64,000 nt of DNA from Neorhizobium tomejilense (lineage in GTDB: Bacteria > Pseudomonadota > Alphaproteobacteria > Rhizobiales > Rhizobiaceae). A program made the position numbers and the translations under genes. Shown piece after piece: positions 8,087-59,046 of this stretch. Within the stretch, counting starts at the first letter, position 1. The number at the start of each line of letters is the position of its first letter. The notes under the pieces are model-generated. The model was not told the origin of the DNA and did not search any database. It saw only the letters and a program-made list of their open reading frames with translations. The stretch covers positions 1 to 64,000 of the forward strand of contig PVBG01000029.1 of the NCBI GenBank assembly GCA_002968845.1. The letters run 5' to 3'.

Positions 8087-8911
8087 TCAGCTAAAGCGGC
8101 TCAAGTACAGGTAGGCGTTTTTGGCAAACTGCTCCGGGTGCTCTGGATCATCGTGCTCAGCTATTAGAAGTCGTGCACCCTCCTGGACCGCGCTTCTTAT
8201 CAGCAAAGGCAATACTAAAATCCCGTCCCCGACCTCCGCCCACACATATCCCCTATTTTCGGAAGATATGGCGACGTCTTTTATATGCGCGGCGACCAGC
8301 CTTGATTTCAAGCGACGGAGCCAGACGCTCGGATCTGCACCACCGAAGCGTATCCAGCCGATATCTGCTTGCCATCTCAGCAGACCACTGTCGTCCGCGC
8401 GGAACAGTTCTTCGATGGGCGACCGACCTGAATTGAGGATGTCAAAGCACTCTCCACCATTATGGAAGCCAAGTTCGATGCCGCTGCCAAAAAATCGTTC
8501 TGCCAGAATACCGAGACAAGCTCCCGCTCGTGCCCATTGAGAAGCGTCCCGCACCTTTTGAATTCGCAAATCGTGTACGAAGACACTTCGTATTCCTACG
8601 ATGAGGCAGGCGTCAAGAATGGCGCCGGCGTTGTCGATGAGGAACTGATACTCGACGTGCAGCGTCGTGCATTCCAGCCCCCGGACATCCAGCATTGTTC
8701 TGAAGATCGACGGTTCATTGATATGGATTTGCAGGCATTCGACCATCTTGAAACCGGCGTTGCGAGAGGCCTCAAGCTGTGCATCGATGGATCCTAGGCG
8801 CCTCATCGAGAAAAGCTGCAGCGCTATCGAAACAGACGCGTGACCCCACAGCGCCGTGTTTGGCGCTTCGACCATCGACGGAACCGACCTCGAACCTATT
8901 GCTGAGACCAT
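8087..8911 (-). CDS. Sugar phosphate isomerase/epimerase-like TIM-barrel protein
   Basis: A 274-residue protein of the xylose-isomerase-like TIM-barrel (AP-endonuclease 2) family: LQLFSMRRLGS at the first strand, LGFHNGGECFDIL, then WQADIGWIRFGG, AAHIKDV and LLIAEHDDPE, which hold the metal-binding Glu, Asp and His residues. Substrate specificity varies widely in this family. It is the last gene of the leftward unit (ABC importer, gluconokinase, isomerase), so it probably acts on the imported sugar. The true start could be ATG 8872, since the first about 25 residues are not typical. Confidence 0.8.
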   Translation of the reverse strand: MVSAIGSRSVPSMVEAPNTALWGHASVSIALQLFSMRRLGSIDAQLEASRNAGFKMVECLQIHINEPSIFRTMLDVRGLECTTLHVEYQFLIDNAGAILDACLIVGIRSVFVHDLRIQKVRDASQWARAGACLGILAERFFGSGIELGFHNGGECFDILNSGRSPIEELFRADDSGLLRWQADIGWIRFGGADPSVWLRRLKSRLVAAHIKDVAISSENRGYVWAEVGDGILVLPLLIRSAVQEGARLLIAEHDDPEHPEQFAKNAYLYLSRFS

Positions 8912-9066: not shown

Positions 9067-9603
9067 TCATTGCGCGGCCTGTCGGTTCTCACCGGAGAGT
9101 ATGGTCATGAACTGCTCGACGATTCTCTCGGGTGTAGCAGCGTCGATCGTTATCACGTCATCCTCGGTCGAAGGATCTTCCAGGGTGTGGAACTGGCTCT
9201 CGATCAACGCGGCGGGCATAAAATGCCCAATCCGACAGCCAAGTCGCTGATTGGCTTCTTCACGGGAGATTCTCAGATAGAGGAATGTCACCGTACAGCC
9301 TGCGAGTGATCGCAATTTATCCCGGTATCGCGCTTTCAACGCGGAGCAAGTGATCACCGGCGGATCATGACTATCGGAAGCTAAGGCGCGACCGATGGTT
9401 TCTAGCCACTCAGCCCTGTCATTATCGGTCAGCGGTGTGCCAGCGGTCATCTTTGCAATGTTGGTAACGGAATGAAGCTCATCACCCTCCACAAACGTCT
9501 GTTGAAGCCGAGCCGCGACCAAGCGTGCAACCGATGTCTTCCCGCATCCTGACACTCCCATCACGATTACTGGTATCTTGTGCATTTGTCGTGCGACCAT
9601 CAT
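9067..9603 (-). CDS. gntK: Gluconokinase, GntK family
   Basis: A P-loop kinase of about 175 residues: Walker A GVSGCGKTSVA, VEGDELHSVTNIAKM (substrate region), ITCSALKARYRDKLR and the lid-like GHFMPAALIESQFHTLE. These are diagnostic for thermoresistant-type gluconokinase, which converts gluconate to 6-phosphogluconate. The start is uncertain among ATG codons at 9603, 9600 and 9585; the last fits the family length best. It lies 169 bp downstream of the ribose-type permease and upstream of the TIM-barrel isomerase. A second gluconokinase is encoded at 52020-52556. Confidence 0.88.
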   Translation of the reverse strand: MMVARQMHKIPVIVMGVSGCGKTSVARLVAARLQQTFVEGDELHSVTNIAKMTAGTPLTDNDRAEWLETIGRALASDSHDPPVITCSALKARYRDKLRSLAGCTVTFLYLRISREEANQRLGCRIGHFMPAALIESQFHTLEDPSTEDDVITIDAATPERIVEQFMTILSGENRQAAQ

Positions 9604-9772: not shown

Positions 9773-10798
9773 TCAACCCCGACCGCGACGGTTGCGATAG
9801 ACGTCAACCGTCACTGCGGCGACAATGATGACGCCCTTGACGATCTCCTGGTAGTAGGCGTCAACGCGCAAGAACGTGAAGCCAGAGGACATTACCCCCA
9901 GGATGATGACGCCGATGACCGTCCCAGTGATCCGTCCGATCCCGCCGGCTAGCGACGTTCCGCCGATAACGGCTGCTGCAATTGCGTCAAGCTCGTAGTT
10001 GACGCCCATGCCGGATTGCGCTGTTTGGGCACGCGCTGCGGTGACGATTCCAGCGAGTCCGGCGAGCATGCCGGCTATCGCATACACCTTGACCAGGTGC
10101 GCCTCCACATTGATGCCCGACACGCGCGCGGCCTGCATGTTCGAGCCAATAGCGTAGGTGAATTTGCCATATCGAGTGTACTTCAGGGCGACATGGAAAA
10201 TAATTGCGACCACGATGAACACGACGACCGGCCAGGCACCGGAGCCGATGAAGGTGAACTGGTCAGTCAGACCAGAGATTGGCTGGCCCTTCGTGTACCA
10301 TTTGGAAATGCCTCGCGCTGCAACCATCATACCGAGGGTGGCAATGAACGGAGGTATCCGAGCATAGGCAACAAGGGCACCGTTGATGAGTCCGGCTATC
10401 GCTCCGAGGATGATGCCGACGCTAATCGGCACGATTGCCGGCATGTCGGTGAAGCCGGGATATAAAGCCCGTGTCCATTCGGAGGATTGCGCTACGCTCG
10501 CAGCGATCATTGCGGTCATGGCGACCACGGAGCCTGCCGAGAGATCGATGCCGCTGGTGATGATTACCTGCGTGACGCCAACGGCGATGATGCCGACTAC
10601 GGAGACCTGCAGGATCGTGATTGTCAGGCGTTGCGTGTTTGCAAGAAAGCTCTGGCCGATGAATATCCAGCCCATTGCCTCATAGATCAGGGCAATCCCG
10701 ACGAGGACAAGGAGGATGTTGAGTTCCTGAGGAGGCTTCCATCTCTGCATAGCAGGGGAGGGCGCAATGCGAGTTTTTTCAGCGAGATTCTTTTCCAT
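9773..10798 (-). CDS. Ribose-type sugar ABC transporter permease (RbsC-like)
   Basis: A 341-residue membrane protein of the BPD_transp_2 family with about 8-10 hydrophobic helices. Markers are TSGIDLSAGSVVA, FIATLGMMVAARGISKWYT, ARVSGINVEAHLVKVYAIAG and GGTSLAGGIGRITGTVIG. It forms the membrane channel of the importer with the ATPase and binding protein encoded immediately upstream (25 bp gap to the ATPase gene). Confidence 0.93.
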   Translation of the reverse strand: MEKNLAEKTRIAPSPAMQRWKPPQELNILLVLVGIALIYEAMGWIFIGQSFLANTQRLTITILQVSVVGIIAVGVTQVIITSGIDLSAGSVVAMTAMIAASVAQSSEWTRALYPGFTDMPAIVPISVGIILGAIAGLINGALVAYARIPPFIATLGMMVAARGISKWYTKGQPISGLTDQFTFIGSGAWPVVVFIVVAIIFHVALKYTRYGKFTYAIGSNMQAARVSGINVEAHLVKVYAIAGMLAGLAGIVTAARAQTAQSGMGVNYELDAIAAAVIGGTSLAGGIGRITGTVIGVIILGVMSSGFTFLRVDAYYQEIVKGVIIVAAVTVDVYRNRRGRG

Positions 10799-10823: not shown

Positions 10824-12344
10824 TCAACGGGATGCCAGTTCCATTACGGCGACCTGGGTCGCATCGCTCCGCGGCAGGATGCCCGTCACCTTCCCTTCGT
10901 GCATGACCAGGACGCGATCGCTCATCCCCAGGACTTCGGGAAGCTCGGACGAGATCAGAATGACCGCTGCGCCGGATTTGGCGAGACTGGAAACGAGACC
11001 GTGGATTTCCGCCTTTGCGCCAACGTCGATACCCTTTGTCGGCTCGTCGAGAATGAGGATCCTTGGTGCGGTGAGTAGCCACCGCCCAATCAACACCTTC
11101 TGCTGGTTCCCACCCGACAGGTTCTGGATGCTCACGTTCAGGCCAGTCATCTTGATGCGCAGCCTACGCGCCATTTCGGCGCAATCCACGGCGACAGAGC
11201 CGCCCTGTACGAAGCCCGAGCGTGTATAACGGGTTTGTAGTGCTGCGATCTGCATGTTTTCGAGAATGTCGAGCGCGAGAAGACAACCTGTTTCCTTGCG
11301 ATCCTCGGTGAGAAAGGCCATGCCGTGCGCAATCGCATCGCTTGGCTTTCTGATTTGTACACTCTGTCCGGCGATGCGAATTTCGCCGGATGTCGGGGGG
11401 GTGACCCCGAAGAGGGCTTCCGCAACGTTTGAGCGCCCCGACCCTATGAGCCCGGCCATTCCGAGGATCTCGCCTGCGCGCAAATCGAACGAGACGTTGG
11501 AGAAAACACCTTCGAGATCGAGGTTTTTCACCGACAAAAGGACGTCGCCCAGTTCAACGTCCTCTTTGGGAAACATCTGAAGGACTTCTCTGCCCACCAT
11601 CCGCCGGATGATTTCGTCGCGACTGATGGTGCTGGCCGAATGCGTCGATATATATTTGCCGTCGCGGAAGATGGAGATTTCGTCAGAGATTTCCAGGATT
11701 TCGTTCATTTTGTGCGAAATATAGACGACACCTTTGCCTTCGGTCCTCAGTTCCCTGATGATCTCGAAGAGATGGCTCACCTCCCGATCGGTAAGGGCCG
11801 AAGTCGGTTCATCCATGATCAAGACTTCGGAATCATATGAGACAGCCTTGGCGATCTCGACCATTTGTCGGCTGGCGACCGACAGGGTTCTGACCTCGCC
11901 ATCCGCCCGGACGTTAATGCGAAGGCGCTGGAGAAGATCGTTTGTGATCCGGTTCATCTTCTTGTGGTCGATGAACCCGAACGCATTGCGCGGCTCTCGC
12001 CGTATCCAGATGTTCTCGGCCACGGTCATGGAGGCCATCAGGTTCAATTCCTGATGGATCATGGCGACACCCTTCTCGAGCGCATCCAGCGGCGTCGAGA
12101 GCATAACCTCTTTTCCCTTGAGGTGTAGCGACCCAGCGTCCGGCTGATAAATTCCTGCAAGGATCTTCATCAACGTAGATTTGCCGGCGCCATTTTCACC
12201 CATCACGGCGTGGACGCTACCGCTCCGGAGGTTGAATTGCGCGCCGTCAAGCGCGACCACGCCTGGAAACTCTTTCCGAATGCCTTGCGCACTGAGAAGC
12301 AAGGCCTGTTCGGCTGTGGGATCGGCCAATGTAACGTCGCTCAT
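10824..12344 (-). CDS. Ribose-type sugar ABC transporter ATP-binding protein (RbsA-like)
   Basis: A 506-residue tandem ATPase with two nucleotide-binding domains. The first has [28 protein letters not shown] and [11 protein letters not shown]; the second has a degenerate Walker A (GSGRS) with [16 protein letters not shown] and [16 protein letters not shown], the usual pattern of this class. Start at ATG 12344 is chosen because GGAGG lies 7 bp upstream; an in-frame extension to 12392 is less likely. It is the middle gene of binding protein, ATPase, permease. Confidence 0.94.
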
Positions 12345-12402: not shown

Positions 12403-13329
12403 TTACTTAAGGAAGTTCGCGAGATTGTCCTTGGTAACCAACGTCAGATTCGAATAGATCTTCTTCTCGGTGGGCTCGCCCTTCACGACCTTTAGGATCG
12501 CGTCTAGTGCATCCTTGCCCTGCACCGCTGGATCCTGCTGTACGGTTACAGCCATGTCGCCGGCTTTCATTGCAACGAGAGCGTCCTGCGTGGCGTCGAT
12601 ACCTGCGACAACAACGTTTTTCGTGGAGGCTCCCGATGCCTTCAATGCCTGGATGGCGCCGAGGGCCATCTCGTCGTTGTTTGCGATGACGGCGTCGAAC
12701 TGCGTGCCGGCCGTGAGCCAGTTGGTAACCAGATCGAGAGCGTTCGTTCTCTGCCAGCCAGCCGTCTGTTCCTCAACGATCTTAATGCCCTTGCACTCAT
12801 CCGATTTGAAGACGTTGTGAACGGCCTCGGTTCGGCCGCGAGCGACAAGCGTGCCCAGTTCACCCATCAGGATGACAGCATTGCCCCTGCCGCCCAACGC
12901 TTTGCAGACGGCGGTGGCTTCAAGTGTGCCCGCCTCGATCTGATCGGATCCGACGAATACCTGCTTTGCCGGCAGCTTGTCGATGTTGCTCGGCTGGTTG
13001 TTCGCAAAGACCATGGGAATTCCGGCATTTTCGACGGTCTTTGAGATCGTCACGCCAGCGTCTGCTTCGACAGGAATGACGATAATTCCATCGACCTTGC
13101 TGGCGATGAAGTTGTCGATCTGGCTCTGCTGCTTGGAGACATCGCCTTGCGCATCTTCGATCAGCAGCTTGACGTTACCGAGCTCCTTCGCGCGTGCTTC
13201 CAGGCCGCTACGCAGAATTGCGAGAAAGTTGTCATCGAAACGCTGCATGCTGAAACCGATCGTGGTTTCGGCGTGCGCGGATGCAGCGATGCTTGCTGCG
13301 AATACGGCTGCGAGTGCGAATTTCTTCAT
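12403..13329 (-). CDS. Periplasmic sugar-binding protein (RbsB-like)
   Basis: A 308-residue type I periplasmic binding protein. A signal peptide covers about residues 1-20 ([15 protein letters not shown], cut after AHA). The mature part begins [19 protein letters not shown] and contains the ribose/galactose-binding features [21 protein letters not shown] and [13 protein letters not shown]. It is the first gene of the leftward operon, behind the promoter at 13588-13615. The ligand is unknown; the gluconokinase and isomerase downstream suggest a sugar acid or modified sugar. Confidence 0.93.
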
Positions 13330-13580: not shown

Positions 13581-13615
13581 GTGAAACGATAAACTTGACA
13601 TTTGGTTTGTGTCAA
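13581..13615 (-). promoter_or_regulatory. Promoter and LacI-type operator of the leftward ABC operon
   Basis: On the minus strand TTGACA (13615-13610) is followed 17 bp later by TTATCG. The -10 region overlaps GTTTATCGTTTCAC (13594-13581), which matches the operator GTGTATCGTTACAC found at the divergent promoter at 12 of 14 positions. TTGACA (13595-13600) and TGTCAA (13610-13615) also form an inverted pair. Repressor binding over the -10 box would block the binding-protein operon. Assignment to the LacI encoded at 13849 is inference. Confidence 0.6.
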
Positions 13616-13719
13616 TCGCCATGGCTGTGAATTATTATAAAATTTTGAGATTGGCTCCATTCCGGGGGAATTGTAGTCATCAGCCCCGGATAATCGGCGC
13701 ATAAAGGCGCAAAAAAAAT

Positions 13720-13752
13720 TTGACAACAAGTTATCGAGGTGTATCGTTACAC
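13720..13752 (+). promoter_or_regulatory. Promoter and LacI-type operator of the rightward unit
   Basis: TTGACA at 13720-13725 is followed after 16 bp by TATCGT, which lies inside the near-perfect palindrome GTGTATCGTTACAC (13739-13752, one central mismatch). Such palindromes with central CG are typical LacI-family operators. The promoter points to the LacI gene, 96 bp downstream, so it probably gives autoregulation and may also drive the hyuA unit. Confidence 0.6.
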
Positions 13753-13848
13753 TAACCAAGCGAGACTTGTCGGAGGACGCACATGTCCTCTGTCGCATCC
13801 TTCCTTCGGTGATATCCTTGTCGCTCCAATAGCCTGGACGGCCTGATC

Positions 13849-14982
13849 ATGGATGATGAACATATGGAAACCACACGGCCGAAGCGAAGCGAACGGCGAT
13901 CGAGTGCTCAGGGCGCGACATCGGTAGATGTTGCAGCCGATCGCGCGACCATTCAGGATGTGGCCAAAGCCGCCGGCGTCTCCAATACGAGCGTCTCGAA
14001 TTACATGAACGGCAGGCTGGAGCGGCTGGGTCTGGAAACAAGGGCGCGGATCGCGGATGCGGTGGGACGTCTCGGTTTCAAGCCAAATCAAGCCGCCCGG
14101 CAGTTGAAGACCGGTAAAACCAAGGGGATAGCGCTCGTTGTTCCCAGTATCGTCAATCCGTTCAACGGCCAACTGGTTTTCGCGATCGAGCAGGCTGCGG
14201 TCAAGGCTGGATACGCTGTCCATCTCTGCAACACGATGCGCGACAATGCAGTCGAAAAGCGCTTTCTGGAGAACCTGGTCGGTTTGGGTGTCAGCGATCT
14301 GATCACCATTGCGCCGCTGAGTGCCCGGAAAGGCTTTTACCGACCGCAAAGTGATTTCTCCGTTGTCGCGATTGACGCGGACCGGTCGGATCTTCGCCTC
14401 CCTCGCCTCGATACGATCAACTTCAATCATGAAGTAGCGATCGATCTGGCAGTGGAACACCTGTACGAACTCGGGCATCGCCGCATTGCTTACGTCACGG
14501 ATCCGATGATCACATACAGTCGCCGCAAGCGTCTGGCTGGTTTTAAGGCCGCCATGGCAAACAGAGGCCTCCAGGGCGATCTGGTCGTATTGCTCGATGC
14601 AGATCACGGAGCGCGTGATATCGCTGACGCCGAGATGCTGGAAGTTGGCCGAAGTGCAGCACCGGAGGTGCTGAAACTTCGCCCTCGGCCAACTGCTGTT
14701 GTGGCTTTCAATGATATGATTGCTCTCGGTCTCCTCGCAAGCTTCAGACAAGCTGGTCTATCCGTGCCCGGCGACCTCTCCTTGGTTGGAATAGACGATG
14801 TCTGGGTCAGTCAACTATCTTATCCGGCGTTGACGACGGTACGCCAACCCATCGAGGCGATGGGCGCGGCGGCCGTCGATCGGATCATAAACCATTTGGC
14901 AGGGGCTGTCGGGGGAGGTTCCGACACGCTTTTCCTGCCCGAACTCACAGTGAGGGAGACATGCGGAGAACCGTCCAGCTAA
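13849..14982 (+). CDS. LacI-family transcriptional regulator
   Basis: A 377-residue LacI protein. An about 30-residue N-terminal extension precedes the helix-turn-helix and hinge (TIQDVAKAAGVSNTSVSNYM, then RARIADAVGRLGFKPNQAAR). The effector domain shows VVPSIVNPFNGQL, HRRIAYVTDP, VVAFNDMIALGLL and VGIDDVWVSQLSYPALTTV. It lies between the leftward ABC operon and the rightward hyuAB genes and probably controls both through the twin operators at 13581 and 13739. ATG 13864 is an alternative start. Its ligand is unknown. Confidence 0.9.
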   Translation: MDDEHMETTRPKRSERRSSAQGATSVDVAADRATIQDVAKAAGVSNTSVSNYMNGRLERLGLETRARIADAVGRLGFKPNQAARQLKTGKTKGIALVVPSIVNPFNGQLVFAIEQAAVKAGYAVHLCNTMRDNAVEKRFLENLVGLGVSDLITIAPLSARKGFYRPQSDFSVVAIDADRSDLRLPRLDTINFNHEVAIDLAVEHLYELGHRRIAYVTDPMITYSRRKRLAGFKAAMANRGLQGDLVVLLDADHGARDIADAEMLEVGRSAAPEVLKLRPRPTAVVAFNDMIALGLLASFRQAGLSVPGDLSLVGIDDVWVSQLSYPALTTVRQPIEAMGAAAVDRIINHLAGAVGGGSDTLFLPELTVRETCGEPSS

Positions 14983-15082
14983 GCGCGCGGTAACAGCAGG
15001 TCCCAACAAACAACCAAACCTCCCCATGACTTTGAGCAACTGGCCGGCACATCGCCGCGCCTTAGAGAGAAGGCTTTGCTTG

Positions 15083-17182
15083 ATGGATATCAATTCCCAC
15101 GCCAAGGGCTTGAGCACGGGGCTTCGGCTTGCCTGCGACACCGGCGGCACATTCACCGATCTGGTCGTGGAGGACGGCGAAACGATTCGACTGTTCAAGG
15201 CGTCTACCACCCCGGATGATCCGGTTCGCGGCGTGCTCGATGCCTTGCAGCTCGCGGCGGATCACTACAAGCTTGACCGCGGCACATTCCTCAAACGCGC
15301 CTCCATGTTCATTCATGGCACTACCCGCGCAATCAACGCGATCATCACCCAGAAGACGGCCAAGACCGCGTTCGTAACGACAAAGGGGCACCGGGACATT
15401 CTGGTGATCCGTGAGGGCGGTCGGATCGAGCCCTTCAACTTCACCGTCGCATATCCGGAGCCATATGTACCACGCCGTTATACGTTTGAGGTCAACGAAC
15501 GAATTGACGCCCGCGGCAACGTCGTCTCCGAACTCGACGAGGCCGACTTCATGGAAACGCTGAAGCGCCTGAAAGACCTGAAGGTCGAGGCAATTGGGGT
15601 CTGCCTTCTCTGGTCGGTTACGAATTCCGTCCATGAGTTGCGCATCGGCGAGTTGATCAAGCAGCACCTTCCGGATGTTCCCTTCACCCTGTCGCACCAG
15701 CTCAACCCGACACTGCGCGAATATCGCCGCGCATCGGCCACCGTCATCGATGCGTCGCTGAAGCCGTTGATGTTCCGCTATCTCGACAGCCTCACCAATC
15801 GTCTGAAGGACGCGGGGTTCGATGGGCGCACGCTGATGGTCACCTCCAGCGGTGGTATCATGGATGCGGAGGCCGTCGCACGAGCGCCGATTCACTCGAT
15901 CAATTCCGGCCCGGCCATGGCACCGGTCGCCGGCCGCTACTATGCAGATCGCGATTTCGGAAACCCGATCGCCATCGTCGCGGACACAGGTGGCACCACG
16001 TTCGACGTTAGCCTCGTGCGCGACGGCCGTATTCCGTGGAGCCGGGAAACCTGGATTGGCCAGACAACGCGCGGCCATATGACTGGCTTCCCCTCAGTCG
16101 ACATCAAGAGCATTGGTGCCGGCGGCGGTTCGATTGCCTGGGTCGATGACGGCGGTATCCTGCAGCTTGGTCCCCAGAGCGCTGGCTCGACGCCTGGCCC
16201 AGTCGCCTATCGCCGCGGTGGCACCGAGCCGACGGTCACCGACTGCGCCATCATTCTTGGATATATCGATCCGGACTTCTTCCTTGGCGGCGCGATGGTT
16301 CTCGATCGTGCCGGCGCGACCGAGGCTCTGCGTACCAAGGTCGCTAATCCGCTCGGCATCAGCGTCGAGGAAGCTGCGGCCTCGGTTCTCAAGCTCTCGA
16401 CAGAGAAGATGGTCGGCGCTGTCGAGGAAATCACGGTCAATCAGGGTATCGATCCGGCATCTGCACTGTTGATCGGTGGCGGCGGCGCGGCCGGCCTCAA
16501 TGCGGTTGCAATCGGCAAGCGCCTGCAGTGCGCTGGGGTACTGATCCCGGAAGCCGGCGCGGTGATGAGTGCTGCCGGTGCGTTGATGTCGGAGCTTTCA
16601 TCCGATTACGCACAATTGAACTTCACGACCAGCGGCAAGTTCGACGGCGAGAAGATCAATACGGTGCTCGCTGAGTTGGAAGCCCGTTGCCAGAGCTTTG
16701 CGGAGGGCCCCGGGGCGAATGCGATCGAGCACAAGATCGAATTCTCGGTCGAAGCGCGTTATCCGCACCAGATCTGGGAGATTGACGTTCCCTTGCCGTC
16801 CAGCCGGATTTCCTCTGATGGCGACCTGCAGGCGCTGAAATCGGCATTCCATGAAATGCACCAGCGTATCTTCGAAATCTCCGATCCGGATTCCGAGGTC
16901 GAGTTCGTTACCTGGCGGGCGAAGGTAAGCTGCAAGCTGAAGGAGGCGACCTCAGGATCGCTACCACGTGAAGGGGGCTTCAGTGGCGGAAAGGCATCCC
17001 GGCCGGTCTATTTCAGTGAGACAGGTTGGATCGACGTCCCGGTTCACCGCTTCGAAGCGATGGCTCCCGGCAATCCGGCGCCCGGTCCTTCTATCGTCGA
17101 ATCCTCATTCACCACGGTCGTCATCGATCCGCAGACCGTAGCCGAACGCACCGCCGGCGGCGGCTTGCGCGTAACATTCTAA
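15083..17182 (+). CDS. hyuA: ATP-dependent hydantoinase/oxoprolinase subunit A (HyuA)
   Basis: About 699 residues, the usual length for HyuA. The N-terminal domain begins with LACDTGGTFTDLVVEDG and continues with FIHGTTRAINAIIT; the ATPase domain has VADTGGTTFDVSLVRDG; GGGGAAGLNAVAIGKRL and PEAGAVMSAAGALMSELSSD follow. This family hydrolyses cyclic amides (hydantoins, 5-oxoproline, caprolactam) or carboxylates ketones with ATP. ATG 15083 is preferred over the in-frame 15026 because the domain begins directly after it and AGAAGG precedes it. It is 100 bp behind the LacI gene and 13 bp before hyuB. Confidence 0.9.
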   Translation: MDINSHAKGLSTGLRLACDTGGTFTDLVVEDGETIRLFKASTTPDDPVRGVLDALQLAADHYKLDRGTFLKRASMFIHGTTRAINAIITQKTAKTAFVTTKGHRDILVIREGGRIEPFNFTVAYPEPYVPRRYTFEVNERIDARGNVVSELDEADFMETLKRLKDLKVEAIGVCLLWSVTNSVHELRIGELIKQHLPDVPFTLSHQLNPTLREYRRASATVIDASLKPLMFRYLDSLTNRLKDAGFDGRTLMVTSSGGIMDAEAVARAPIHSINSGPAMAPVAGRYYADRDFGNPIAIVADTGGTTFDVSLVRDGRIPWSRETWIGQTTRGHMTGFPSVDIKSIGAGGGSIAWVDDGGILQLGPQSAGSTPGPVAYRRGGTEPTVTDCAIILGYIDPDFFLGGAMVLDRAGATEALRTKVANPLGISVEEAAASVLKLSTEKMVGAVEEITVNQGIDPASALLIGGGGAAGLNAVAIGKRLQCAGVLIPEAGAVMSAAGALMSELSSDYAQLNFTTSGKFDGEKINTVLAELEARCQSFAEGPGANAIEHKIEFSVEARYPHQIWEIDVPLPSSRISSDGDLQALKSAFHEMHQRIFEISDPDSEVEFVTWRAKVSCKLKEATSGSLPREGGFSGGKASRPVYFSETGWIDVPVHRFEAMAPGNPAPGPSIVESSFTTVVIDPQTVAERTAGGGLRVTF

Positions 17183-17195
17183 TCAGGAGTCGCAC

Positions 17196-19010
17196 ATGAC
17201 CAGCTCCCCTTCGAAAAATGCTCCCGACGGTGTGCAGATGGCGATGATCTCCAGCCGCATGGAGACGATCGCCCGCAAGATGCAGAACACCATCTTCCGG
17301 ACAGCACGATCCGGCATTCTCAACACCGCGCACGACTTTTCGTGCGTCGTGCTGACGGCAGATTGCCAGATGCTGTCGGCCGCAGAAAGCCTGCCGAACC
17401 ACACACTGATCGGCCCGGACCTGATGTGCCAGGCTGTGCTGAAGCACCATCCCATTATGAAGCGCGGCGACTGCTTCCTGCACAACAGTCCTTATGAGGG
17501 CAATTCTCACGCCGCCGACCACTGCATGATTGTTCCGGTCGTCGATGACGGGGGCGTTTTGCGCTTCTTCGTCCTAGCGAAGGCGCATCAGGCCGATTGC
17601 GGCAACTCGCGCCCTTCCACCTATCTCGCCGACGTCAAGGACGTCTACGAGGAAGGCGCGCTGATCTTCTCGGCGACGAAGATCCAGGAAGACTACAGAA
17701 CCAACCAGGACATTGTGCGCATGTGCGAGTCTCGTATCCGCGTACCGGATCAATGGTGGGGCGACTTCCTGGCGACACTCGGTTCTGTTCGTATCGGTGA
17801 ACGCGAACTGCTGGCGCTCGGCGATGAACTTGGCTGGGATGTGCTGGAAGGCTACGCGTCGCGCTGGTTCGACTATTCCGAGCAGAAGATGATCCAGGCC
17901 ATCTCGAAGCTGACGACGGGCAAGATCACGCTGCATTCGGCACATGACCCCTTCCTTGGCCTGCCGGACGGTATTCCGGTCAAGGTGGAGGTCGAGATCG
18001 ACGCGGAAAATGCCCGCATCACGGTTGATCTCACCGACAATCCCGATTGCCAGCCCTGCGGTCTCAACCTGACCGAAGCGACCTCGAAGAGTGCTGCCAT
18101 GATCGGTATCTTCAATGCGCTCCTTGATCATCGTGTGATCCCGAACTCCGGAAGCTTCCGTCGCATCGACGTGAGGCTCAGGGAAAATTGCTGCGTCGGC
18201 ATTCCGCGTCATCCGGCATCCTGTTCTGTTGCAACAACCAATCTGGCCGACCACGTGACTAACCCGGTGCAGCGTGCGATTGCGGAGTTGTCAGCAGGTT
18301 ACGGTCAGGCGGCTACGGGGCCGATCCAACCGCCCGGCATGGGTGTCATTTCGGGACGCGATCCGCATAACAAAGACGAGCCATTCATCAACCAGGTCCA
18401 TATCGGCGTAAGCGGCGGTGCCGGTACGCCAGTCACCGACGGCTTCCTGTCGATCATCCATGCGGGTAATGCCGGCATGTGCCGTATCGACAGTGTCGAG
18501 GTTGACGAACTGCATCATCCGATCCTGATCGACGATCGGCATCTGATAGAAGATAGCGAGGGTGCCGGTACCTATCGCGGCGCCCCGTCCATCTACAGCG
18601 AATATGGCCCTTGGGGTGGGAGTGAACTGACCATTCTCTATGCCGCGGACGGCACGGTTACGCCGGCAGCCGGTACGCGAGGTGGCGGCTCGGGTGGTAC
18701 CTGCCGAGCGGCCATGCGCAAGGTTGACGGGAGCGTTGTCGAGCTACCCCCATGCCATGGCATCACGCTCAAGGCGGGAGAAAAGATCATCTCGCATTCG
18801 GCAAGTGGCGGCGGCTACGGCGTGCCAACCGAGCGCGATCCGGCTCGGGTCATCCACGATCTGGCCGAAGGCTGGATCAGCCTCGAACGCGCCCGCGACG
18901 TCTACGGCGTTGCCGTCGTCGGCTCGCGCGCCACGGATGATCTGGCACTTGACCCCGTCGGAACGGAGAAATTGCGCAGTAAGGGCAGGCCGCTCGCCGC
19001 AGCGAGCTAA
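17196..19010 (+). CDS. hyuB: ATP-dependent hydantoinase/oxoprolinase subunit B (HyuB)
   Basis: A 604-residue HyuB protein with family motifs HTLIGPDLMCQAVLKHHP, GDCFLHNSPYEGNSHAADHC, PGCADGF-like Gly-rich turns and GGGSGGTCRAAMRKVDG near the C-terminus. It forms a complex with HyuA. AGGAG lies 8 bp before the ATG. HyuA/HyuB pairs cannot be assigned a substrate by sequence alone; two aminotransferases downstream suggest that an amino acid or amine is released. Confidence 0.9.
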   Translation: MTSSPSKNAPDGVQMAMISSRMETIARKMQNTIFRTARSGILNTAHDFSCVVLTADCQMLSAAESLPNHTLIGPDLMCQAVLKHHPIMKRGDCFLHNSPYEGNSHAADHCMIVPVVDDGGVLRFFVLAKAHQADCGNSRPSTYLADVKDVYEEGALIFSATKIQEDYRTNQDIVRMCESRIRVPDQWWGDFLATLGSVRIGERELLALGDELGWDVLEGYASRWFDYSEQKMIQAISKLTTGKITLHSAHDPFLGLPDGIPVKVEVEIDAENARITVDLTDNPDCQPCGLNLTEATSKSAAMIGIFNALLDHRVIPNSGSFRRIDVRLRENCCVGIPRHPASCSVATTNLADHVTNPVQRAIAELSAGYGQAATGPIQPPGMGVISGRDPHNKDEPFINQVHIGVSGGAGTPVTDGFLSIIHAGNAGMCRIDSVEVDELHHPILIDDRHLIEDSEGAGTYRGAPSIYSEYGPWGGSELTILYAADGTVTPAAGTRGGGSGGTCRAAMRKVDGSVVELPPCHGITLKAGEKIISHSASGGGYGVPTERDPARVIHDLAEGWISLERARDVYGVAVVGSRATDDLALDPVGTEKLRSKGRPLAAAS

Positions 19011-19100: not shown

Positions 19101-20006
19101 ATGTCGGATTTGGACTGGAGCAGCGGCGCTGCCTATGTCGACGGTCAATATGTGCCGCTCAAGGATGCCAAGATCCCGGTGACCGAATGGGGATATCGCC
19201 GTTCCGATGTCACCTATGACGTTGTCGGCGTCTATTATGGCGTGTTCTTCCGTTTGGACGACCACGTGAAGCGTTTTCGGGCGTCGATGGAAAAGCTTCG
19301 TATGAAGCCGCAGGAAAGTGACGATCAGATTAAGGAGATCCTGACCGAGATCGTCAAACGCTCGGGTTATCGAGAAGCATATGTCGCGATGGATTGCGTT
19401 CGCTCTCGCCCACCCCGCGGCGTGCCCCTACACCCTGCTTATGGGCGCAGCTACCTTATGTGCCACGTGTTGCCTTGGGTGTGGGTCTTCACACCGGAGC
19501 AACAGGAGCGTGGCGTTCACGCGATCATCGGCACCCCCGAGCGGATTGCGCCAGAATCCTTCGATCCGACGATCAAGAATTTTCATTGGGGCGATCTCAC
19601 CCGCGGTAACTTTGAGGCACATGAACAAGGTGCCGAGACCGCCATTCTGCTCGACCGCCACGGCCATATCACGGAAGGTCCAGGCTATAACGTCTTTGCG
19701 GTGTTCGAGGGCAAAGTTGTCACACCGCGCTCCGGCGCGCTCGAAGGCATTACACGCAAATCGGTAATCGAACTTTGCCAGATGCTCGGGCTTGATTGCG
19801 AGCTTCGGGACATCACGCGCGCCGAGTTTGAAAATGCCGACGAAATTTTCTGCTCAACGACAGCCGGCGGCATCATGCCGATCAGCAAGCTGGGCAGCCG
19901 CATTCTCGGAAATGGCCGACCGGGTCTGGTCTCGACCCGTCTCAAGGACACATTCTGGGAAAAGCGCAAGCAGGGCTGGCATGCCACGCCCATCGCCTAT
20001 GAATAA
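19101..20006 (+). CDS. Class IV aminotransferase (branched-chain/D-amino-acid type)
   Basis: A 301-residue fold-type IV PLP enzyme. The PLP lysine is expected in PTIKNFHWGDLTRGNF (about residue 157), and the HITEGPGYNVFAV segment carries the conserved Glu. The C-terminal SSA region reads EIFCSTTAGGIMPISKLGSR. Members include branched-chain aminotransferase, D-amino-acid aminotransferase and aminodeoxychorismate lyase; this sequence is not clearly any of them. Start ATG 19101 has GAGGA upstream. It is 90 bp after hyuB in the same direction. Confidence 0.85.
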   Translation: MSDLDWSSGAAYVDGQYVPLKDAKIPVTEWGYRRSDVTYDVVGVYYGVFFRLDDHVKRFRASMEKLRMKPQESDDQIKEILTEIVKRSGYREAYVAMDCVRSRPPRGVPLHPAYGRSYLMCHVLPWVWVFTPEQQERGVHAIIGTPERIAPESFDPTIKNFHWGDLTRGNFEAHEQGAETAILLDRHGHITEGPGYNVFAVFEGKVVTPRSGALEGITRKSVIELCQMLGLDCELRDITRAEFENADEIFCSTTAGGIMPISKLGSRILGNGRPGLVSTRLKDTFWEKRKQGWHATPIAYE

Positions 20007-20087: not shown

Positions 20088-20858
20088 ATGCAGCAGCAGT
20101 CCATTTTCGACCTCAGCGCTAAGACCGCGCTGGTAACCGGTTCAAGTCAAGGCATCGGGTTGGCGCTCGCAAGAGGGCTTGCTCGGTACGGCGCCAAAGT
20201 TATCCTCAACGGCCGGAGCAGAGAAAAACTCGCAGCCGCGCAGAACCAGCTGCGGACCGAAAACCTTCTTTGCGAGGTCTGCTCCTTCGACGTCACGGAC
20301 GCACAATCGAGCGCATCCGGTATTGCTGAGATTGAGGCATCCGTCGGATCGATCGACATTCTCATCAACAATGCCGGCATGCAGTTTCGCTCACCCCTGG
20401 AAGAGTTTCCGGTTGAAAAATGGGAAGAGCTGCTGAGGACAAACGTGTCCAGCGCGTTTTACGTGAGCAGGGCTGTCGTGGCGGGCATGATCTCTCGCCG
20501 CCAGGGAAAGATCATCAATATCGCATCCGTCCAGAGCGAGCTCGCCCGTCCTGGAATTGCTCCCTATACCGCGACGAAAGGGGCCATCCGCAATTTTACC
20601 AGGGGGATGTGCACGGACTGGGCAAAGTACGGGCTGCAGATCAATGCGATCGCGCCGGGTTACTTCAAGACACCGCTCAATGAAGCTCTCGTAAAGAGTG
20701 AAGAATTCTCCGAATGGCTTCAGAAACGCACGCCAGCTGGCAGGTGGGGAGAGGTGGACGAACTTGTCGGCGCCGCGGTCTTCCTGTCCAGCCCAGCCTC
20801 CTCGTTCATCAACGGCCACACGCTCTACGTCGATGGCGGCATAACCGCCAGTCTTTGA
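20088..20858 (+). CDS. SDR oxidoreductase, gluconate 5-dehydrogenase-like (IdnO type)
   Basis: A 256-residue classical short-chain dehydrogenase: TGSSQGIGLALARGLA (NAD(P) binding), NNAGMQFRSPLEEFP, IINIASVQSELARPGIAPYT with the catalytic Ser and Tyr, and YTATKGAI. It ends PAGRWGEVDELVGAAVFLSS, then INGHTLYVDGGITASL. The same architecture and wording occur in the SDR at 52525-53283, so the two are paralogues of the IdnO family, which interconverts 5-ketogluconate and gluconate. Its place among hyuAB and aminotransferase genes suggests oxidation of a polyol-like part of the substrate. Confidence 0.85.
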   Translation: MQQQSIFDLSAKTALVTGSSQGIGLALARGLARYGAKVILNGRSREKLAAAQNQLRTENLLCEVCSFDVTDAQSSASGIAEIEASVGSIDILINNAGMQFRSPLEEFPVEKWEELLRTNVSSAFYVSRAVVAGMISRRQGKIINIASVQSELARPGIAPYTATKGAIRNFTRGMCTDWAKYGLQINAIAPGYFKTPLNEALVKSEEFSEWLQKRTPAGRWGEVDELVGAAVFLSSPASSFINGHTLYVDGGITASL

Positions 20859-20995
20859 AGTCGGAACCGACCGCCCACACCACCGTCTTTCGGAGGATGG
20901 ATGTCGCTCCGGGAACGACTAACTCGAAACACAGCTCGATGAGAGCGAGGGCGCCGCAGTTGCAGACAGGTCGCCGCAAACGGAGAACGATCCAA

Positions 20996-22315
20996 ATGAC
21001 AAAACTCTCTGAAATTCACGCCGAAGCCAGCAAGTATTTCATCGGCGGTGCTTCGGCGGGACAACGTTACAACGCACCGCTCGGCCAGCCGCTCTACATC
21101 ACCCGAGCCGATGGCAGCAGGTTCTGGGACGCTGATGGAAACGAGTTCATCGATTTCCACACGGGTGCGGGCGCCGCCCTATTCGGACATAACAACCCGC
21201 GTATCCGCGAGGCGATTGGCAAGGCCCTGGATGTGGGGTTCTTCATGAATTTCGATACGGAATACCACACGCAACTCGCCCGGTTGCTGCAGCACTTCTT
21301 TCCGAGTTGCGAGCGGTTCCGGTTATTGAATACTGGCGCGGAGGCAACGCAGTCTGCAATCCGGTTGGCCCGGACCTATACCGGCCGCGAGAAGGTGCTG
21401 AGATTCGAGGGCCATTTCCATGGCATGTACGAGAGCATCTGGTTTAACCATAACATGGTGAGCAATGTTGACCGGCGTGGTGAGGTGGAGACGAATGCAG
21501 ATTCCGCAGGATTTCCGATCCACGCCAAGGACGGCGTCGTCAACGTGGTTTTCAATGACGTCGAGGCTTTGGAGTACGCACTAAAGAAATACAAGGGTCA
21601 GATCGCTTGTGTCATCCTGGAGCCTATCAGCTATAACTGCGGGTGCCTCCAAGCGCGGGAGGAATATCTCCGCGGCGTCCGGGAAATGTGCACCCGCGAA
21701 GATATCGTCCTAATCTTCGATGAGGTGGTCAGTGGCTTGCGGATGCGGCCGGGTAGCGCTCAGAAGTACTATGGCGTCTTACCTGACATGACTGCCATGG
21801 CGAAGGCAATCGGCGGGGGCCTCTCAATCGCGGCCGTTGGCGGCAAAAAAGAAATCATGGAGCATGTCAATCCGATCGGGAACGCCGCGGTGAGCGGGAC
21901 CTATAGCGGTGCACTGATGCCAGTGCTGGCGAGTATCGCGTGCCTGACCATCGCCAGCGAAGACGGTTTCTACGATCGCATCGAGGATACCGGGAGCAAG
22001 TTGTTTACGGGTATCGACGCTCTCCTGTCCAAGCACAAGATTGCCGGCCACGTGCGTGGTCTCGGCGCTCGGTTCGGCATCTACTTTGGGGTCGAGAATC
22101 CGGAAGACGACTTCGACTTCCGCAAAGTTGCCGCATGGCAAGACAGGGCGACCTACAAGAAGTTCGTGACTGAGTGCTTGAGCCACGGGCTCTGGTTCCA
22201 CGATACCGCGGGCCCGGTTTCACCTGCCCATTATGGGATCACGATAGCTCACTCGGAACGCGATGTTCAGGACACTCTCGAGCGTCTTGATACGATCTTC
22301 AAGAAGTGCGCATGA
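20996..22315 (+). CDS. Class III aminotransferase (glutamate-1-semialdehyde aminomutase-like)
   Basis: About 439 residues in the GSAM/omega-transaminase group: FIDFHTGAGAALFGHNNPRI, LLNTGAEATQSAIRLARTYT, FEGHFHGMYE, LIFDEVVSGLRM (PLP Asp) and AMAKAIGGGLSIAAVGG with the PLP lysine. Start ATG 20996 has GGAG upstream; the in-frame extension to 20714 runs through the SDR gene and is rejected. It is unlikely to serve haem synthesis because it lies in a catabolic cluster. It is the last gene of the rightward unit. Confidence 0.87.
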   Translation: MTKLSEIHAEASKYFIGGASAGQRYNAPLGQPLYITRADGSRFWDADGNEFIDFHTGAGAALFGHNNPRIREAIGKALDVGFFMNFDTEYHTQLARLLQHFFPSCERFRLLNTGAEATQSAIRLARTYTGREKVLRFEGHFHGMYESIWFNHNMVSNVDRRGEVETNADSAGFPIHAKDGVVNVVFNDVEALEYALKKYKGQIACVILEPISYNCGCLQAREEYLRGVREMCTREDIVLIFDEVVSGLRMRPGSAQKYYGVLPDMTAMAKAIGGGLSIAAVGGKKEIMEHVNPIGNAAVSGTYSGALMPVLASIACLTIASEDGFYDRIEDTGSKLFTGIDALLSKHKIAGHVRGLGARFGIYFGVENPEDDFDFRKVAAWQDRATYKKFVTECLSHGLWFHDTAGPVSPAHYGITIAHSERDVQDTLERLDTIFKKCA

Positions 22316-58750: not shown

Positions 58751-59046
58751 TTTTCCCTACAGCTCTGACGAACCACCCCTGTGTATCATTGGACTGGTTT
58801 GAAGTAAGTTAACCAACCTCGTCCGAGCGTAGAGATGAAGGTACTAGACGGTCACTGCTCAAGGGACCCACCCATTGTCAATGCCGCTCGTCATATGATC
58901 AGGTGTACGTTCTGGCTGAGGCGGCGAGCCGGCAGCAAATGGGAACGCTTCTCCAAATCAGCTGAACCCGGCTCGGCGTACCTGCTGTCAGGGCCAAGCA
59001 GGAATGAATGGGAGCATTCCGCGCCCTCAACTGCAGATATCAGGGA

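Follow-up and report, generated by a model that had tools for sequence, protein, structure and literature searches.

Predicted LacI-family operators over the -10 regions of two divergent promoters between a sugar-type ABC importer operon and a lacI-hyuAB unit in Neorhizobium tomejilense

Introduction

In the lac operon of Escherichia coli, auxiliary operators serve one promoter, and the C-terminal part of the LacI protein holds a tetramerisation helix. For the LacI family at large, PMC4052901 gives even palindromes centred on CG as the typical type of operator, reports autoregulation in 72% of the LacI-family transcription factors (LacI-TFs) studied and describes multiple sites in divergons. 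The AglR and ThuR regulons of Rhizobiales are treated in the same source and, together with the lac operon and the ribose repressor RbsR, are the systems with which the present locus is compared.

The locus lies on a stretch of 64,000 nucleotides from Neorhizobium tomejilense (contig PVBG01000029.1, positions 1 to 64,000; hereafter the window), in which an ABC importer operon and a LacI-family gene diverge from a common intergenic region. From its sequence the arrangement is an ordinary LacI-family divergon; in sites of the window's type the CG of the family is present and the arms are imperfect in most loci. Two 14-bp CG-centred sites in this region are most probably operators (a probability of about 0.88) for the product of the LacI-family gene at 13849, which would thereby be autoregulated and would occlude both promoters.

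Results

The first leftward gene encodes a sugar-type ABC substrate-binding protein (SBP; 12403..13329, minus strand) that is 84.7% identical in Rhizobium laguerreae. On the same strand are genes for a sugar ABC ATPase of the RbsA/MglA type (10824..12344, its ATG start taken from the ORF), a sugar ABC permease of the RbsC/MglC type (9773..10798, from a family match and comparison with R. laguerreae) and a gluconokinase-type kinase (9067..9603, TIGR01313 above cut-off), the last placed in the operon by its strand and distance. An ORF beyond the kinase matches no family at the thresholds used and is 39% identical to an R. laguerreae protein annotated as a sugar phosphate isomerase/epimerase. On the plus strand the LacI-family gene is followed by a HyuA-like hydantoinase/oxoprolinase A subunit (15083..17182, the start chosen within an ORF of 15026-17182), a HyuB-like B subunit (17196..19010, family match), an aminotransferase of class IV (19101..20006, family match), an SDR oxidoreductase resembling gluconate 5-dehydrogenase (20088..20858, NF005711 above cut-off) and an aminotransferase of class III (20990..22315, approximate start). 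The nearest NCBIfam models for the HyuAB pair (15083-19010) are those of caprolactamase, with scores far below cut-off. In R. laguerreae, genes whose annotations cover the same functions lie on a plasmid.

The presumed cognate repressor is a LacI-family regulator of 377 aa (13849..14982, plus strand). Its N-terminal LacI helix-turn-helix (Pfam LacI, PF00356, 42.7 bits against a cut-off of 27) and its periplasmic-binding-protein-like effector domain (Peripla_BP_3, PF13377, 126.2 bits against 26.5) both score above cut-off. The gene is rare among relatives: at an E value of 1e-60 it was found in one of 200, namely the window's own genome. Relaxing the E value to 1e-50 gave 10 genomes out of 397 in the order and 5 out of 394 in the family; these counts include the own genome, and the others are at no more than 51% identity.

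The leftward SBP gene starts at 13329 and the rightward LacI gene at 13849, with 519 bp between them. Within this region the predicted left operator, GTTTATCGTTTCAC (13594-13581, minus strand), covers the -10 region in the promoter of the ABC operon, and the predicted right operator, GTGTATCGTTACAC (13739-13752, plus strand), covers the one in the LacI/hyuAB promoter; their centres are 158 bp apart in the window. The -35 hexamer of the leftward promoter (TTGACA, 13615-13610, minus strand) starts 21 nt from the operator start, and that of the rightward promoter (TTGACA, 13720-13725, plus strand) 19 nt from it. An earlier note on this DNA had reported that the two sites agree at 12 of 14 positions and that each overlaps the -10 box of a promoter with a perfect TTGACA, one facing each way. 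The agreement was found again, with the same sequences, strands and coordinates, and the promoter arrangement was borne out by a promoter scan. The overlapped -10 is TATCGT at both promoters, matching TATAAT at four of six positions, with spacers of 18 (left) and 16 (right). As TATCGT falls wholly within the operator on both sides, the '-10' and the operator are the same bases and do not count as independent observations. The scan found four promoter-like sites against 0.5 expected from shuffles, two of them weaker and on the plus strand (13609-13638 and 13616-13643). The right operator is palindromic at 12/14 positions and the left at 8/14.

Two further features of the region were seen. The left -35 hexamer is surrounded by an inverted repeat, TTGACA-N9-TGTCAA (13595-13615); it was rejected as a separate element, the R. 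laguerreae copy having one arm base changed and both Mesorhizobium loci lacking it by eye. A short reading frame, ATGTCCTCTGTCGCATCCTTCCTTCGGTGA (13783-13812), follows GGAGG in the LacI leader and by eye is a possible leader peptide.

Genome contigs were scanned with the LacI protein, and five loci were found, in R. laguerreae (L006, 74% identity), two Mesorhizobium genomes (L007 and L008, both 67%), Mesorhizobium sp. YM1C-6-2 (L009, 51%) and Bifidobacterium (L010, 33%); a plasmid record of R. laguerreae (L011) is a repeat of L006. The divergent layout of the window is also found in L006, L007 and L008. The earlier note had proposed a search of orthologous intergenic regions as a check on its reading, which a lack of conservation would have refuted, and in these three loci both operators are present beside LacI. 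Moreover, the distance from the start of TTGACA to the operator is exactly 21 nt on the SBP side and 19 nt on the LacI side in all four loci. In the four-locus alignment 23 of 28 operator columns are invariant (12/14 in the left operator and 11/14 in the right), as are all 12 columns of the -35 hexamers (each TTGACA in 4/4 loci), against 75 of 491 columns elsewhere (Fisher P ~1e-13 for the operators, with columns treated as independent). Identity of the window to L006, L007 and L008 over the aligned region, with the operators counted in, is 51, 43 and 43%, respectively. L007 and L008 are 77% identical to each other in the intergenic region and so count as less than two loci. The central CG is invariant in both operators across the four loci, and the four proteins share an identical recognition region (VSxxSVSNYMN) and an identical hinge (ARQLKTG). 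The earlier proposal that the leftward ABC operon and the rightward LacI/hyuAB unit are tied to one repressor is thus well founded, since the predicted operators are conserved at fixed promoter positions beside the closest LacI orthologues.

The six operators of L006-L008 are palindromic at 8/14 positions in five cases and 10/14 in one. Most orthologous operators share one asymmetry, reading GTGTATCG and then TTTTAC downstream from TTGACA, perhaps because one half doubles as the -10. It was also seen that the 2-nt difference in the -35-to-operator distance (21 against 19) is preserved exactly across the four loci. Searches of held-out genera gave no new orthologue: the gene was found in one of 4 genomes and, in the genus of L007, in 2 of 146, all of them previously known loci.

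More distant homologues were taken from 12 other genomes matching LacI, six with wide flanks and the rest in short loci, and from eight of the 112 plasmid records in which LacI had a match. These were searched with a strict rule of TTGAC[AG], a distance of 19-21 nt and no more than three mismatches to one or other of two consensus strings. The strings derive from the orthologues, so that for the window and L006-L008 only the offsets are independent evidence. At least one site was found in 8 of 12 LacI-bearing loci (L011 not counted), where at most 0.02 per locus are expected by chance (100 shuffles of two-base blocks). The positive loci are the window, L006, L007, L008, Agrobacterium vitis L012, R. 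phaseoli L013, L028 and L031, and the first five of these have two strict sites facing in opposite directions. In A. vitis (LacI 46%) the ABC and hyuA promoters each have a similar site, 19-20 nt from TTGAC(A/G), and one site each is found in R. phaseoli (LacI 40%), L028 (45%) and L031 (39%). The A. vitis and R. phaseoli sites are 12/14 palindromes. Near the 45%-identical LacI homologue of L028, two operator-like sites were seen 53 bp apart (8221-8234 and 8274-8287).

The strict rule found no site in L027 (same genome as L009), L029, L030 and L032, nor in 13 further distant loci (L010, L017-L023 and L048-L052). Promoter and site occur together in 6 of 7 loci with LacI identity of at least 45% (window included) and in 2 of 18 below 45%. 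The strict arrangement is absent from L029, a divergent SBP/LacI pair with LacI below 45%, and two Sinorhizobium loci that lack a close LacI and have a related ABC operon, its SBP 59-60% identical, gave no promoter-site; in Sinorhizobium L038 a 28% LacI paralogue adjoins a different ABC operon. In L009/L027 (LacI 51%) the strict promoter-site is also absent, and the only site, with three mismatches, lies 24 bp before the SBP start. The genes of this cluster are all on one strand, with SBP at 62%, hyuAB at 70-77% and SBP, ABC and hyuAB overall at 62-77% identity. By eye, palindromes of the AAAATATATTTT type were seen upstream of the SBP gene in L027 (YM1C-6-2), possibly marking a changed regulator.

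When the -35 was not required, Caballeronia L050 was found to have CTGTATCGATACAC before TRAP genes, and sites with three mismatches lie near the expected promoters in L048, L049 and L051 (one of those in L049 just inside a gene), a result compatible with chance. L052 has no such site and carries a different palindrome, ATGAAACGTTTCAT, twice; the SBP-only locus L053 has none near its SBP gene. It is therefore only suggested that the motif belongs to a wider LacI subfamily.

The pattern TTGACN{12,18}GTKTAWCGWT, composed after the operators were known, occurs three times in the 6.56-Mb genome, against none for a reversed control, and two of these are the operators of the window. The third fits one operator half only, is apparently intergenic (by eye) and was taken as chance. 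In the genomes of L006, L007, L008 and L009 there are 4, 2, 1 and 0 occurrences (control 0); two of the four in L006 are situated away from the locus, and one L008 operator misses the pattern by a single base. A genome-wide search for a wider regulon with GTGTAWCGWTACAC at up to two mismatches gave 10 places, whereas the reversed control gave 13, and hence no excess.

Discussion

Other readings of the two sites were weighed against that of operators for the LacI at 13849. When the 519-bp intergenic region was shuffled by dinucleotides, 59 of 300 shuffles held an inverted pair agreeing at 12/14 or better, which speaks for a chance pair of similar 14-mers; the 12/14 similarity on its own is weak evidence. 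A scan of the whole window with the right operator at up to three mismatches gave 4 matches against 1.80 expected, a number reached in 12 of 100 shuffles; these are the right operator on both strands, the left operator and one at 58781. However, an inverted pair with TTGACA upstream of both members arose in none of the 300 shuffles, and a chance pair is refuted by the retention of both operators at fixed offsets in the three closest loci, leaving it a negligible probability. The same conservation might be that of promoters alone, with the stretch an unusual -10 element (TATCGT) and not an operator: it occupies the -10 position of both promoters at a fixed distance from TTGACA, and the orthologous sites are mostly just 8/14 palindromic. 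What is conserved, however, is 14 bp including the central CG and both ends, not a single hexamer. TATCGT is moreover poor as a -10 and is TAACGT or TACCGT in orthologues, where the GT and AC ends are unchanged, and palindromes of the same kind stand near the more distant homologues of A. vitis and R. phaseoli. We regard promoters alone as very unlikely. Much the same low probability attaches to the sites belonging to a different regulator by which this divergon happens to be controlled. Two DeoR genes are close by in R. laguerreae, and the assignment to LacI is itself drawn from sequence; yet in the loci examined related sites adjoin LacI homologues with differing neighbours (hyuAB/ABC, and TRAP in L050), and a CG-centred even palindrome is of the LacI-family type according to PMC4052901.

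The earlier suggestion that the spacing of about 158 bp could allow looping found no support. A repressor bridging both operators for cooperative repression would be in keeping with two sites for one regulator within one intergenic region, and the spacing in the window is close to 15 helical turns. However, the spacings in the window, L006, L007 and L008 are 158, 149, 154 and 154 bp, or 15.05, 14.19, 14.67 and 14.67 turns at 10.5 bp, so that window and orthologues are out of phase. The protein is also without a C-terminal extension like that of E. coli LacI: the match to the latter ends at chain residue 328 of 360, 32 short, where the query has 6 residues left. The R. laguerreae and Mesorhizobium proteins run slightly longer past the conserved end, with nothing like a tetramerisation helix to the eye. 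The histogram of intersite distances in PMC4052901 peaks at 13, 22 and 32 bp. Looping is on these grounds improbable, if somewhat less so than the promoter and second-regulator readings.

In the preferred reading, that of LacI operators occluding both promoters, a LacI dimer on either operator would cover a sigma-70-type promoter at its -10 region, from which RNA polymerase would be excluded by the bound dimer. One repressor would in this way silence the operon of the sugar-type ABC importer to the left and the lacI-hyuAB-aminotransferase-SDR unit to the right, taking the operon extents as predicted, and LacI would repress its own gene too. An inducer, probably the transported compound or its catabolite, would free both promoters. 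An importer and a catabolic unit under one repressor with a defined predicted operator would provide a handle on the inducer, and hence on the substrate. At a guess, the substrate is a lactam- or hydantoin-like sugar derivative. The regulon may serve uptake and ATP-dependent ring opening (HyuAB/caprolactamase-like) of an unrecognised lactam or hydantoin derived from a sugar; transamination, oxidation and gluconokinase-type phosphorylation would come next. We hold this possible but rather unlikely. If it is true, the two operators embedded in the promoters would switch a catabolic pathway of rhizobia and relatives that has not been described before.

Literature searches joining LacI with hydantoinase, oxoprolinase or gluconokinase, all terms being required, returned nothing. 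Among six operator strings searched for, only a 10-base string matched, with no title on the subject among the papers listed, and a search for divergent LacI operators in S. meliloti listed PMC4052901 alone. The regulog may already be contained in the supplements of PMC4052901 or in RegPrecise.

Among the described systems, the locus resembles the AglR and ThuR regulons in its layout. According to PMC4052901, these too pair a local, autoregulated LacI-TF with an adjacent ABC transporter/catabolic cluster, and they have a CG-centred operator and sites in a shared intergenic region. In contrast, the predicted operator here is GTGTATCGTTTTAC-like and the unit is of the hyuAB/aminotransferase kind, while the AglR and ThuR motifs given in that source differ. 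With E. coli LacI and the lac operon the locus shares the protein family and an operator overlapping the promoter; unlike there, the C-terminal extension is absent, two divergent promoters have one predicted operator each, and loop phase is not conserved. RbsR gives the best NCBIfam score (NF047341, 210 bits), and an RbsABC-like importer is the presumed target in both cases. However, this score is far under the cut-off of 382 bits, and the further predicted targets here are gluconokinase-type and HyuAB-type genes.
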